Assembly (NCBI GenBank): GCA_016946835.1
Contig: JACVTC010000003.1
Coordinates: 802,501-847,500 of the forward strand
Length of the DNA stretch: 45,000 nucleotides
Direction of reading: 5' to 3'
From: Neocallimastix lanati (nom. inval.)
Lineage: Eukaryota > Neocallimastigomycota > Neocallimastigomycetes > Neocallimastigales > Neocallimastigaceae
The notes under the pieces were generated by a model. That model ran no database searches. It saw only the letters and a program-made list of their open reading frames with translations, and was not told the origin of the DNA. Shown one piece after another: positions 12,531 through 19,121 of the stretch (the first letter of the stretch is position 1; the number at the start of each line of letters is the position of its first letter). Made by a program: the position numbers and the translations under genes.

Positions 12531-15202
12531 ATGGACTTCAATACTACAGTTTTCCAAACTTTATCAGGATGTCTTGATCCAAATCCAAATATTCGTTTAG
12601 AAGCAGAATTAAAATTAAAAAGTTTAGCCTTAAATCCAGGTAATTAAAATTTTTCAAGAAAAGAAGGAATATATTGAAAAATTAGAATTATTATTATACT
12701 ATATTGTATAATTATTAAATGTATATTTGAATAGTTTATTTCCTAATCAAAATGATTAATTATCATTTTCTTTTATATTTGAATAATTGTATTTGTCATA
12801 ATATTGTAATTCTAATAACAATTATTTGTTTTTAAATAATAAATTATAATCTGCTTATTTGTCATCTATTAATATATATGTAAACAGAATATGCTTTATC
12901 CTTAATTAACATTGCTCTTGCTAAAGAATTACCTTTTGCTCAAAGACAAATATCCTTTTGAAATATATTTAATACATTTTTAAAAAATGTATTTTTTTTT
13001 TTTTTTTTATAATATATAATAATATTTATTTTTCTTAACTTGTAAATTTTGCTTTAATTTAAATATGTATATTTTACTATCTATCTGTTTATTTCTGTCT
13101 TCCTATATCTTTATCTATATTTATATCGATATCTATATCTATATCTATATATTTTTTTTTTATTTTGAATTTACATGGCAGCAATTACTTTAAAGAGTTT
13201 GGCCGCTACACACTGGTCACCAAAGGATGAAAAATTTGTTGGACCAGAAGTTCCAGAAACTGTAATGAATTTTATAAGAATATTAATATACATAATAATC
13301 AATAAAATACAATATATAAAAATATATATATTAATTAAAAATTTAATATATATATATATTAATTATAGACTAAAGCTGCTGTTCGTGAAAAACTTTTAAC
13401 TGGTTTATCCGACGATTTAAATAAAATTAGAGTTGCAATTGTATTTATCTTAAAAAAAAAATACAAGGAATATTAAATATTGTTAATAATAAAATGAATA
13501 AAACTATTGATTACCTTTTTTTCTACTTTTTTTTTTTTTATTTTTTTATCTTTTATTTTTATATAAAAATGATACCATTTAAATTATAACATATATTATA
13601 TTATTATTATTACTATTATTATTAATTTTTGTTTTTTAAAAGGCTTATGCTATTTCAAGAATAGCTCAACATGACTGGCCAGAATCATGGCCACATCTTT
13701 TTGATTCATTACTTGAAAATCTTCGTAGTGGTGATTCAAAACAAGTTCATGGAGCCATGCATGTATTAAGTGAATTTATTCGTAATGACATTACTGATCA
13801 ACAATTTCCAATTGTTGCACCACTTCTTTTCCCGGAATTATTTAAGATTTTCAATGAAGAAAAAGTAATAAATAAATATATATATTATAATTATTATAAT
13901 GATGAAATCAATTTTTTTTTTTTATAATTGTTAAATATGTTAATAAAAATATATTATAATCCATTATTTATTATTATAAATTAGTTATATTCCCCACAAA
14001 CTCGTGCTCGTGCTGTTGCTATTATGAGAGATTTCGTTGAAATGTTAAATACTGTTAAGGAAGAACATCCAGATGCTGCCCAATATTATCTTGGTCCAAT
14101 TTTAAATGATTGGATGACCAATATGCTTCTTTTCTTAAAAACATCACCTAGTACAGAATTTGGTGATTATGGTTTAAGACTTGAAGTTTTAAATGTATAT
14201 AATAAAATTAGAAATTTTCATAATATATATATATATTTATAATGTTACATTATTATCAAATTATTAAATTTTTTTTTCTGTAATAAATAATTATTATAAT
14301 ATATATATATATATATGATATAGCTTGTTTGTAAACTTTTAGAAACATTCCCAAAAATGGTTGCTCAATATATTACAGGATATATTCCAGTTGTTTGGGA
14401 TCATATTACTGGTTTATCACAAAGATATGTTAATGAAGTTGTTAATGATGGTGATGGAGAATTTGCTGAAGAACATTCTGATGGTGAATCTTTTGGTATG
14501 GAAAACTTCCTTTACATTCTTTTTGAATTCTTTAATCTTTTAGCTTCTAAAAAAACTTTCAGACCATTATTTACTACTAATTTCAAGAAAAATGAAAAAA
14601 TTAATATTCAAATCCCAGAAGGTCATAATCAACAAAAATTCTTAGAAGAAATTATTTACTACTGTTTAATTTATATGGAAATGACACAAGAGCAAGTTAG
14701 TTATTTAATACAGTATAATTCAATATAATATCATAAATTAAAATAATTATTATCAAAATAAATTATTTAATATATTAATGAATATATTATTATACTATCA
14801 TTATAACTCTGATAATAATATTGAAATATAAAATTTCTATCTTTAATATAATGTATTATCAATAGATGGATCTTTGGATTTCAGATGTTAATCAGTATGT
14901 TCAAGATGAACATGAAGAAACTTATAGTTTTAATGTTAGAATTTCAGCTCAAGAATTAATTATTGATTGTCTTTCCATATTTTATCCATTTGAAACGGTT
15001 AATGCTTTAATTAATGCTACTAATCGTCATTTCCAAAATGGTATTAATGCTCGTAATAATGGTGATCCAAATTGGTATGTATTCAATATTTATTTATAAT
15101 AATAATATATTATTATTATGATATATATTATTATTATGATATATATACATAATTTTTTTTTTATATCTATTATTATTATTATTATTATAATTATTATTAT
15201 TA

Positions 15203-15247
<45 letters not shown>

Positions 15248-15530
15248 AAATAAAGGTGGAAGATTCATGAAACATGTCTTTTAGCTATTGGTAGATCTTC
15301 AGTTATTATTACCGATGGTGTGGAACAAAATCAAATTCAATTTGATTTAGGTGGTTTATTTAATCATGTTATTTTAGAAGATATTAGTTATTCAGGTATA
15401 TAATGTTATTATAATTAGTATAGCTTTTTTTTATTTTTTTTATAAAAAAAAAAAAATAGTAATGATTCTTGACATACTTTTTAATTTTATTTAATCTTAT
15501 TTGATTTTGTTGTTTTATTATTTTTACTTA

Positions 15531-15566
<36 letters not shown>

Positions 15567-15785
15567 ATTATTTTTTTTTAAAATAGATCTTCCATTCCTT
15601 CAAGGTAGAACCCTATGGTTTACAAGTCAATTTGCTAAATCATTACCAAACGAATTAGCATCACAATATATTACTGCTGCTGTTAATGCTTTACAACCAA
15701 ATCAACCATTCCCAGTTAAGATTTCTTCTGTTAAAGCATTAAAGAGGTAGCCTATTTTAGAATATAATATTTTAATTTTATTTAA

Positions 15786-15830
<45 letters not shown>

Positions 15831-16309
15831 GTAATTATTATTATTTTAATTATTATTTTACTATATTAATATAAATATATATACATATTATATTATTAGT
15901 TTTTGTTCATATTTAGAAAATGAAAAACTTCAACCATTCCAATCTGCTATTTTAGAAAACATGGCACCAATGGTTAATGATGCTTCTGATGATATTTTAT
16001 TCTTAATCCTTGAAACTTTCACAGATATTATTATGGTACATATTTACCCATCGAGCATTATCTATATTATTTTAATACATTTGAAATATATATATATATT
16101 AATTAACTATACATTATTATTGGCAATAAATCTGTTTACTTTTAGATTAATCCAGAAATTACTGCTCAATATGAACCAATTATTATTCCAATTATTATTA
16201 ATGTTTGGGTTAAAAATTGTGATGGTAAATAATTATAAATGTTACTATAGTTTTACTAAAATATAATAATGATAATTATATATATATATCATAATAGTAA
16301 TTCTAATTT

Positions 16310-16342
<33 letters not shown>

Positions 16343-16589
16343 AATTGCTATTTCAAATAATAATTAGATCCATTAATGTCCAGTTTTGTAACTGATTTAT
16401 TTGAAATTCTTGCCCCAAATCCAGGATATGTTGAACCACTTCAAACCAAGGTTATTCCTGTAGTAATGCAATCTCTTTTAGAAACTGAAAAAGAAACTTT
16501 CTCTGGAGTTGCTACTGTATCTATATATATATATTAATTTTATTATTATTACTAATTACTATTATTATATATATACAACAATTGAGAAA

Positions 16590-16620
<31 letters not shown>

Positions 16621-16973
16621 TATTTAATAAAATAACTAATTTTAATATTTAAATATTTATCTTTTTTATATTGAAAATAATAGTCATGTATTGAATTAAT
16701 TACTGTTTTAATTAGAAAATTGTGCATTAGTCCATTACCATCATTATATGTTGAACAAATTTTCCCTAATCTAATGCATTTATTATCTACCACAGATGAT
16801 CAATCCATTTTACAAGTAAATATAAAATATTTAATTTATTATATATATACCTACCTACCCACACATATATATAACAACACAAAAATTTTAAATATTAATT
16901 TAATAAAAAAAAAATTTCTTTTTTTATTTCATTTTTTATTTTTGTTATTTTTTTTTCTTTTATTTTTATTATA

Positions 16974-17005
<32 letters not shown>

Positions 17006-17527
17006 GACTGGTCAAGATTATTTAAAATATATGATTCAAAAGGCTTTACCACAATTAATTGCTTGGTATATTTTAATATATTAAATTATATTTTATAAAA
17101 TTATTTATTATTTGAATCTTAAAATTTTTTTTGAGGGTTTAATTTAAAATAATTAATATGATAAATGTTTTTTTATAATAAATATATAAAAGGGTTGAAC
17201 CAAATACTGGCAAGAATGGTATTGTTTTAATCGTTGAATTTATTGCCAAGATGTTAGAACCATCTCAATCCGATAACGCTTCTATTTTCTTGGGTGATTT
17301 AATTAATAAATTAATCTTGAAAGGTGGTAATGATATTGCTCAAATTTTACCAGATTTATTATCAGCTATTACTAGTCGTGTTGCCATTTCAAAGAATACT
17401 ATATTCATTCAAGTATATATCAATAATAATTAATTTATTAATTAATGATAAATTATATTATTTAATTAAATAATAATATTAAATATGTATTATATTTCGT
17501 TATATTACATTATATGTATATATTATT

Positions 17528-17567
<40 letters not shown>

Positions 17568-18093
17568 ATGATTTGCGTTTTTGCTCAATTAATTCAATCC
17601 CAAATGGAAACTGTTATTTCTTTCTTAGCTCAATTAAATATTGATGGTAAAAGTGGTTTAGAAATTATTTTAAGAGCATGGTGTGAACATTATGATAGTT
17701 TCCAAGGTGTATATAAGACTAAATTATGGTAAGAATTTTTTTTTTTTTATTTTTTATTTTTATTTTTAAATTTACTAATCAAATAAAATAAGATTATTGT
17801 TAATTTTATTATCATTATTAGTAATACTAGTAGTATTAGTAGTAGTATTAGTGACTCTATTTATATTAATCTGTAAATAAATATTAAATATTTATTTATT
17901 TATTAATTATAAATCAAATTAATATGATTTTATTTAGTACTATTGCCTTAAGTAAATTATTTACTTCTAATGATCAAAACTTACAAGGTATTACAGTTCA
18001 AGGTGATTTAATTTTGAATGAAAATAAAGGTATGATTATTATATAAATATTTTAAATTATTATTATTATTATTACTATTATTATTATTATTAT

Positions 18094-18137
<44 letters not shown>

Positions 18138-18730
18138 AGAAATATTAATATCTTTTCTTTTTTAACATATTTAAATTTTTTTTTTTTTCTTCATTTTTTC
18201 TTCTAATATTAGGTATAATGACACGTTCAAAGAGTAGTACTGGTAAATATACATAATTAATTTTAATACATTATACATTAATAATATAGTTTATAAAGTT
18301 TAACTGCATAATGGATTTTTTATTAAAATATTTTATATTTAATATAGCTAAGCAATACAATGAATTACCTTTCTATGTTAAAGCAATTAAATTATTAGCT
18401 AATGAATATCAACGTTCATTACAAGAAGAAGATAGTTATGTTGAAGGATATGAAGAAGTAAATTTCTAATCATTATCTATAACTGTCTCTATCTTTGTAT
18501 TATTTATTATAATTAAAAAATTTTTAATATATTTAAAATAATAAAATAATAGGAGGAAGATACATGGGAAGAAGACGCTGCTGACGGTGATTTTAAATAC
18601 TTATCAGGTAAATAATTATTAAATAAAATTCTATATAATATATATTAATTTTTATTTTAATCTATTTAAAATAATAATTATTATTATTATTATTTTCCTC
18701 CCTTCATTTTACTTATTTATTTATTAATTA

Positions 18731-18769
<39 letters not shown>

Positions 18770-19121
18770 TTTATTATTATTAGAAATTGTTGATTATGGC
18801 TATATTGATGATGATGGAGGTTACGAAGAAGAAGATGAAGATATTAAAAATGATCCAATTTACGAAGTCAAAATTAATGTAAAATGATATTTTTCAAATT
18901 TTTTTTTTTTGTATAATCTATTATAATTATAAAAAATTTTCTTATTAGTATTTATTAATTTATCAAAAAAAAAAAATTTTTTTTTTTGTTAAATATAGGA
19001 ATATTTACAAAATTTCTTTAAAAAATGTGCCAGTGAAAATACCAATAATTTCATGGGAATTTGTGAACAATATTTAAATGACTCTCAAAAGAAGATAATA
19101 GAAGGAGCTCTTAAGAATTAA
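12531..19121 (+). CDS. IPO9: Importin-9 (Kap114-type karyopherin beta)
   Basis: Nuclear import receptor; relatives carry histone H2A-H2B, TBP and ribosomal proteins through the pore in a Ran-GTP-controlled way. 23 exons: 12531-12639, 12888-12949, 13175-13261, 13369-13440, 13643-13864, 13985-14194, 14324-14695, 14866-15074, 15256-15395, 15587-15746, 15900-16035, 16146-16224, 16368-16516, 16684-16815, 17007-17065, 17193-17412, 17565-17728, 17938-18029, 18213-18242, 18348-18457, 18553-18607, 18784-18878, 18999-19121. All 22 junctions keep phase and give 1028 residues (human IPO9 about 1040). Landmarks: N-terminal importin-beta repeat (LPFAQRQ|MAAITLKSLAATHW), IAQHDWPESWPHLFDSLL, WWKIHETCLLAIG, the GIMTRSKSS motif in a 30-nt microexon, an acidic loop (EEDTWEEDAADGDFKYL) as in histone-binding importin-9, and DPIYEVKINEYLQNFF near the end. 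Intron 2 is AT-AC; the others are GT-AG. Confidence 0.95.
12950..13174 (+). other. U12-type AT-AC intron (intron 2 of importin-9)
   Basis: The 225-nt intron starts with ATATCCTTTT directly after codon CAA (Gln57), a perfect match to the minor-spliceosome 5' site, and ends GAATTTAC directly before ATG (Met58). Exon 2 contains no GT, so no conventional donor exists. A consensus branch site is not evident: the nearest candidate is degenerate (TTTTGAAT at 13163-13170), while a better one (TTTCTTAAC at 13031-13039) is unusually far from the 3' end. Confidence 0.85.

Follow-up and report, generated by a model that had tools for sequence, protein, structure and literature searches.

The window analysed here, a stretch of 45,000 nucleotides from the genome of the anaerobic gut fungus Neocallimastix lanati, carries a gene for importin-9 (IPO9), the second intron of which departs from the rest of the gene (Table 1). 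The rebuilt gene model has 23 exons and 22 introns and encodes a protein of 1028 amino acids with no internal stop codon. As stated in a preliminary description of this DNA, 21 of the 22 introns are GT-AG and a single one is AT-AC. The donor of the latter, ATATCCTTTT, is a perfect U12-type match, and the exon that precedes it (12888-12949) contains no GT dinucleotide. The same description had proposed a join between Gln57 and Met58, and this join is ungapped in the alignments to P0001, P0002 and the Piromyces finnis protein P0003.

Table 1. Features of the IPO9 gene and of its AT-AC intron, with positions counted along the window.
Feature	Position	Strand	Remarks
importin-9 (IPO9) gene	12531..19121	+	23 coding exons, ATG to stop
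IPO9 exon 2	12888..12949	+	last codon Gln57
U12-type AT-AC intron 2 of IPO9	12950..13174	+	225 nt, phase 0, after codon 57
U12-type 5' splice site, intron 2	12950..12959	+	ATATCCTTTT
U12-type branch site, intron 2	13031..13039	+	TTTCTTAAC; branch adenosine probably 13037 or 13038
stretch from branch site to acceptor	13040..13172	+	AG 0, AC 1; 69% pyrimidine (whole segment)
first AC past the branch site	13076..13077	+	skipped in the in-frame model
3' splice site AC, intron 2	13173..13174	+	followed by AT
IPO9 exon 3	13175..13261	+	first codon Met58

The protein obtained with this model is 90% identical to P0001 and P0002 (JGI), 87% to the Piromyces finnis protein and 85% to that of Anaeromyces robustus. 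The source sequences of P0001 and P0002 (3432 and 3087 nt) have approximately the length of a coding sequence and, judged by length alone, are probably transcripts. Around the Gln57|Met58 junction the protein also aligns without gaps to the solved importin-9 structure. Retention of the intron would lead to a stop four codons into it, and use of an acceptor at 13077, the sole other AC 3' of the branch site, to a frameshift and a stop. The exact cut within the repeated AT could not be located from mRNA alone; shifted cuts yield identical mRNA. A search for a second IPO9 allele or paralogue in the genome returned, among the 40 of 797 candidates that were scored, just short matches in AT-rich pieces besides IPO9 itself.

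By its defining sequences, intron 2 of IPO9 is a U12-type AT-AC intron, with a donor of the form RTATCCTT(T), AT-AC termini and a branch sequence that is near UCCUUAAC and complementary to the U12 snRNA. U2-type AT-AC introns carry a U2-like donor, e.g. ATAAGT, and the IPO9 donor ATATCCTTTT is not U2-like. It is scarcely credible that the major spliceosome handles the intron as a U2-type AT-AC intron, or that the gene is a decaying copy which retains it. All other introns of the gene are indeed major, but intron 2 has a U12-type donor and branch site, the frame is open over 1028 codons, the protein is 87-90% identical to its relatives and the genome contains minor snRNAs.

These snRNAs were sought with Rfam models in the host genome (199 Mb, 762 contigs). 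Two genes for U6atac were found at 57.4 and 56.4 bits, U12 at 56.8 bits and U11 at 40.5 bits, while U4atac reached 47.2 bits and stayed below its gathering score of 53. U12 has an intact branch-binding element, GUAAGGA, and co-folding of U4atac with U6atac gives an 11-bp stem plus further pairing. All four of the snRNAs for which the preliminary description had advised a search are therefore represented, U4atac below the cut-off, and these families point to a minor spliceosome in this genome, as had been supposed. Minor introns and minor snRNAs have been reported in the Neocallimastigomycetes, for Piromyces finnis and Neocallimastix californiae, in the available text of PMC10639083, so the earlier supposition was right and not new. 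The same text describes the loss of minor introns as complete in Dikarya only, with retention in other fungal lineages.

The branch site of the IPO9 intron had been characterised as degenerate or unusually placed. The former has to be given up, as TTTCTTAAC is consensus-like and differs from TTCCTTAAC by a single C-to-T change. The latter stands, with 135 nt between the end of the branch site and the end of the intron. The sequence TTYCTTRAC occurs twice in the window over both strands, on the plus strand only at this site, and is absent from the 21 other IPO9 introns. A consensus branch site nearer the IPO9 acceptor was not found; the best candidate has three mismatches and is equalled or bettered by 97% of shuffles. 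The pyrimidine-rich character of the intervening stretch, in which the longest run is 10, is to be read against a T content of 51% in the introns of this gene anyway. Reviews of U12 introns (available text of PMC3584512 and PMC8199999) place the branch site 10-20 nt before the acceptor, ideally 11-13 nt, and note that a polypyrimidine tract is lacking. The IPO9 distance is outside this range, as are, with IPO9 included, those of eight of the 14 introns accepted in the genome survey described below.

The genome was searched for RTATCCTTT and TTYCTTRAC separated by a gap of 19-142 nt, with the 3' site left free. An earlier pattern that required a near AC had given 10 matches (13 in the reversed control), including three real introns (L023, L026 and L027), and the search was repeated without the demand for AC because that version could not test spacing. 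The free pattern gave 7, 12, 13 and 10 matches at gaps of 19-49, 50-80, 81-111 and 112-142 nt, and the reversed control 9, 14, 6 and 4. There is no excess in these raw totals (42 against 33), so acceptance rests wholly on the coding flanks as judged by eye. All 42 matches were inspected, whereby 14 were accepted as U12 introns, 27 were dismissed and L073 was left uncounted. Of the dismissed matches, 11 fall within long open frames, most of which are antisense, and three of the 11 are copies of one sequence; in the other 16 the coding flanks do not fit, by eye. No intron was found among the 10 matches that start with GT. The survey covers exact donor and branch motifs only, and hence excludes GT-AG introns with imperfect motifs. 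All 14 accepted introns are AT-AC, and their lengths range from 86 to 225 nt (Table 2).

Table 2. The accepted U12-type introns, ordered by the distance from the end of the branch site to the end of the AC.
Gene	Distance (nt)	Support for the junction
ATXN2/PBP1-like	10	Pfam matches flank junction
BRCT protein	10	Pfam model matched at equal lengths across junction
DRC11	13	ungapped at junction against solved homologue
SGF73-like zinc finger	14	partial Pfam match across junction, below curated cut-off
gene on C500 without name	15	reading frame alone
CLASRP-like	17	reading frame alone
RasGEF_N protein	32	partial Pfam match across junction, below curated cut-off
eIF2A	34	ungapped over whole matched stretch against solved homologue
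eL27 copy b	39	ungapped at junction against solved homologue
CDC24-like	41	Pfam matches flank junction
eL27 copy a	52	ungapped at junction against solved homologue
RPC3	73	ungapped over whole matched stretch against solved homologue; weak match, E 0.005
WDR19/IFT144	89	ungapped over whole matched stretch against solved homologue
IPO9	135	ungapped at junction against solved importin-9

The distances fall into a short group of six introns at 10-17 nt and a remote group of eight at 32-135 nt. Between 18 and 31 nt there is no intron in this small sample of 14. The altered minor-spliceosome rules at which the preliminary description had hinted, with AT pressure as a putative cause, would concern the 3' end and extend beyond IPO9, its remote spacing being common to seven other introns. 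With regard to the gene names, SGF73-like is the authors' own tentative reading of a weak zinc-finger match, and IFT122 was rejected for the gene at L040, for which the solved-structure search ranks IFT144/WDR19 first. The two copies of eL27 (L057 and L058) each contain a U12-type AT-AC intron, with acceptors 52 and 39 nt past the branch site; a single query served for the alignment of both copies, the translations of which agree.

The stretch that follows the remote branch sites has a distinct composition. From 8 nt past the branch site to the acceptor, the eight remote introns contain one AC and no AG in 415 nt, compared with 14 AC and nine AG in the 611 nt between donor and branch site. This depletion (1/415 versus 23/611 nt) gives a Fisher p of 7.6e-5 and, in same-letter shuffles, p values of 0.003 and 0.004, although it is possibly favoured by the RasGEF_N and CDC24-like acceptors, which were chosen by frame among few ACs. 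The T content is 65% after the branch site and 47% before it. The acceptor is the first AC in seven of the eight remote introns, the exception being IPO9, and in the short group two introns pass over an AC just 6 or 8 nt past the branch site. The eL27 introns have diverged, yet both copies have kept the donor, the acceptor end, and the branch site plus a few bases that follow it. Branch sites of the CCTTAAC type are found in seven of the eight remote introns and those of the TCTTAAC type in five of the six short ones (Fisher p 0.026, post hoc), as if a near acceptor could compensate for a weak branch site. The IPO9 site is TCTTAAC, against the pattern of its remote group.

Two further ideas about the 3' ends were set aside. 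An obligatory AC|AT acceptor is contradicted by eIF2A, ATXN2/PBP1 and the BRCT protein, although 11 of the 14 introns have it. It is also unlikely that a GT-AG intron is nested in the segment from branch site to acceptor, as this segment is free of AG in IPO9 and RPC3 and free of GT in WDR19.

The remote introns could instead branch near the acceptor, at a degenerate, AT-rich site to which U12 binds by means of G-U pairs; the distal sites would then be relics or products of chance. The best proximal pairing with U12 averages -4.2 kcal/mol in the eight remote introns and -2.8 kcal/mol in 21 major introns. Within the IPO9 intron, looser pairing gives -7.5 kcal/mol at 13104-13115 against -5.3 kcal/mol at the 13031 site, and with the 11-nt U12 element a slight advantage over TTTCTTAAC is seen for the best site no more than 30 nt from the acceptor (-4.1 versus -3.6). 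Compared with shuffles of the same stretch, however, the proximal pairing of the eight introns has a mean z of 0.1 and -0.3; the interval scanned overlaps the branch site itself in two of the eight. Three introns were compared with the branch-site consensus, and in all three the best proximal site has three mismatches, which is matched by 96-99% of shuffles. The chance of an exact branch site over the 124 positions searched, computed from the base composition of the 21 major introns, is about 0.0017 per intron (about 0.17 per 100), and at least eight exact distal sites are improbable even if the genome held 1000 U12 introns (p 4e-4). The distal site is moreover conserved between the eL27 copies, and the depletion of AC and AG starts at it. 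Proximal branching is accordingly judged quite unlikely.

Folding of the RNA, by which branch site and acceptor would be brought together over a short effective distance, is a still weaker candidate and very improbable. In IPO9, 13042-13049 could pair with 13167-13174, but the fold is no better than that of shuffles (z -0.9, 37/200) and the helix would bury the AC. A predicted helix that bridges the whole stretch is absent from RPC3, WDR19 and both eL27 introns.

The reading that is preferred here, and that is probably correct, is that in this fungus the minor spliceosome copes with acceptors far from the branch site, which it locates by scanning. Intron 2 of IPO9 would be excised by the U11/U12-dependent minor spliceosome, with the perfect donor and the branch sequence TTTCTTAAC as the sites that U11 and U12 recognise. 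In spite of an acceptor 135 nt away, step one would take place at the branch adenosine of TTTCTTAAC. Step two would involve passage through the T-rich, AC- and AG-poor stretch to an AC, preferably the first one at least about 10 nt away. The intron and its join, the matches to the branch site, the spacing, the scarcity of AC and AG and the snRNA genes are read directly in the DNA, whereas splicing itself, the use of the distal branch point and scanning are inferred. With remote acceptors in eight of the 14 accepted introns, the 10-20 nt rule of animals and plants would be relaxed in this genome.

IPO9 is the extreme and, on its sequence, the least regular of the remote cases, with the weaker branch site and one AC skipped. 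It is off the branch-site pattern and the sole remote intron to skip an AC; it may therefore be spliced inefficiently or have a non-productive alternative. In one version of this, which is compatible with scanning, the branch site would naturally be joined with the first AC, at 13077, to yield a non-productive mRNA, and 13174 would be used inefficiently or under regulation. The AC at 13077 lies 38 nt from the branch site, comparable to the 39 nt of eL27 copy b, and is the first AC, the choice of seven of the eight remote introns; its use would bring the frameshift and stop described above, and the IPO9 branch site is of the weaker type. On the other hand, the sequence of three close relatives is obtained with the 13174 acceptor only, and 13077 is followed by TA, in contrast to the AT that follows 11 of the 14 acceptors. 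This version is unlikely, if less so than proximal branching.

The U12-type AT-AC introns of animals, plants and non-Dikarya fungi resemble those described here in the donor ATATCCTTT, the T(C/T)CTTAAC branch site, the AT-AC ends and the accompanying minor snRNAs. In major introns, the acceptor can be reached by scanning from a distant branch point through a pyrimidine tract and an AG exclusion zone. U2-type introns of this kind share with the remote group a T-rich zone poor in acceptor dinucleotides and the use, mostly, of the first acceptor; unlike them, the introns here are of the U12 type in donor, branch site and termini and end in AC. Published U12 introns, as far as the available texts describe them, have a spacing of 10-20 nt and no polypyrimidine tract, whereas eight of the 14 found here lie at 32-135 nt beyond a T-rich stretch. 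The minor introns of Neocallimastigomycetes in PMC10639083 belong to the same fungal class and are likewise accompanied by minor snRNAs; the available text concerns their presence, whereas the present results concern spacing and 3' architecture. Minor introns of Blastocystis, according to the same text, are similarly rich in AT-AC (196/253 there, 14/14 here) but very short, with a median of 39 bp compared with 86-225 nt here. No literature on the spacing of branch site and acceptor in gut-fungal minor introns was found in a search that left most subscription journals outside. The spacing and 3' architecture look new, with support for the remote group and less for IPO9 itself.

In the available text of PMC3584512, short spacing is held to be a functional constraint of U12 introns and a possible reason for their little alternative splicing. 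If the preferred reading is true, more than half of a sample breaks the spacing rule, the constraint would be lineage-specific and these introns would offer a natural system for studying how the second step finds its acceptor. One published U12 classifier scans for the branch site from -40 to -5 (PMC2846911, available text), and classifiers that seek the branch site near the 3' end only would miss such remote introns. A wider proposal, tentative and somewhat less likely to be right than wrong, is that the minor spliceosome of this lineage is restricted to AT-AC introns, with branch recognition uncoupled from the acceptor, a 3' plan of the U2 type (a T-rich zone, with the first AC reached by scanning), remoter acceptors where the branch site is stronger, and a U6atac whose 5'-splice-site element is altered in both copies found.

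The position of the intron was followed in other lineages through IPO9 proteins grouped by name; those without a species name were left out, and 44 of 58 proteins of Mucoromycota and 12 of 13 of animals, in which both flanks are covered, were kept. In these gene models, gaps at residues 55-60 occur in 15 of 44 Mucoromycota, one of five chytrid-like fungi, seven of 24 Dikarya and none of 12 animals. The highest gap frequencies of the comparison lie elsewhere, at about residues 347-356, where the query has an insertion. Public IPO9 models (P0004 and 15/44 Mucoromycota) often lack the residues of the Gln57|Met58 junction, and several skip exon 2; in the Anaeromyces robustus model the part encoded by exons 2-3 is missing. 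The gaps are perhaps due to annotation that expects GT-AG, and an intron that is not GT-AG and has a remote acceptor suggests why automatic IPO9 gene models break here. Junction gaps are not specific to minor introns, however, because they are also shown by Dikarya, which are reported to be without minor introns, and by the one chytrid-like protein. The Dikarya models concerned are P0096, P0101, P0103, P0107, P0108, P0111 and P0121, in which the gap possibly reflects an annotation error, or an intron that has become major and whose splice sites have shifted.

Several peculiarities of the minor snRNAs were noted in addition. The two U6atac genes found, on G000:C246 and C588 (L009 1501-1649, minus strand; L010 1501-1646, plus strand), both have GUAUGAGCCGAGAGA in place of the Rfam consensus GUAUGAAAGGAGAGA. 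In the presumed register, this would remove two of six potential base pairs with UCCUUU of the 5' splice site, though the introns retain ATATCCTTT. Pairing of U6atac with the 5' splice site is termed required in vivo by the title of a paper cited in PMC3584512. The 5' end of U11 (L013 1501-1512, G000:C50) reads AGAAUAGGC, compared with the consensus AAAAAGGGC; this one mismatch would interrupt the pairing with the donor, if the 5' end of the RNA lies there. Finally, both U6atac genes have GUUGGC (consensus GUUAGC) opposite GCC (consensus GCU) in the U4atac gene (L012 with L009 and L010), a change from A-U to G-C that is possibly compensatory.
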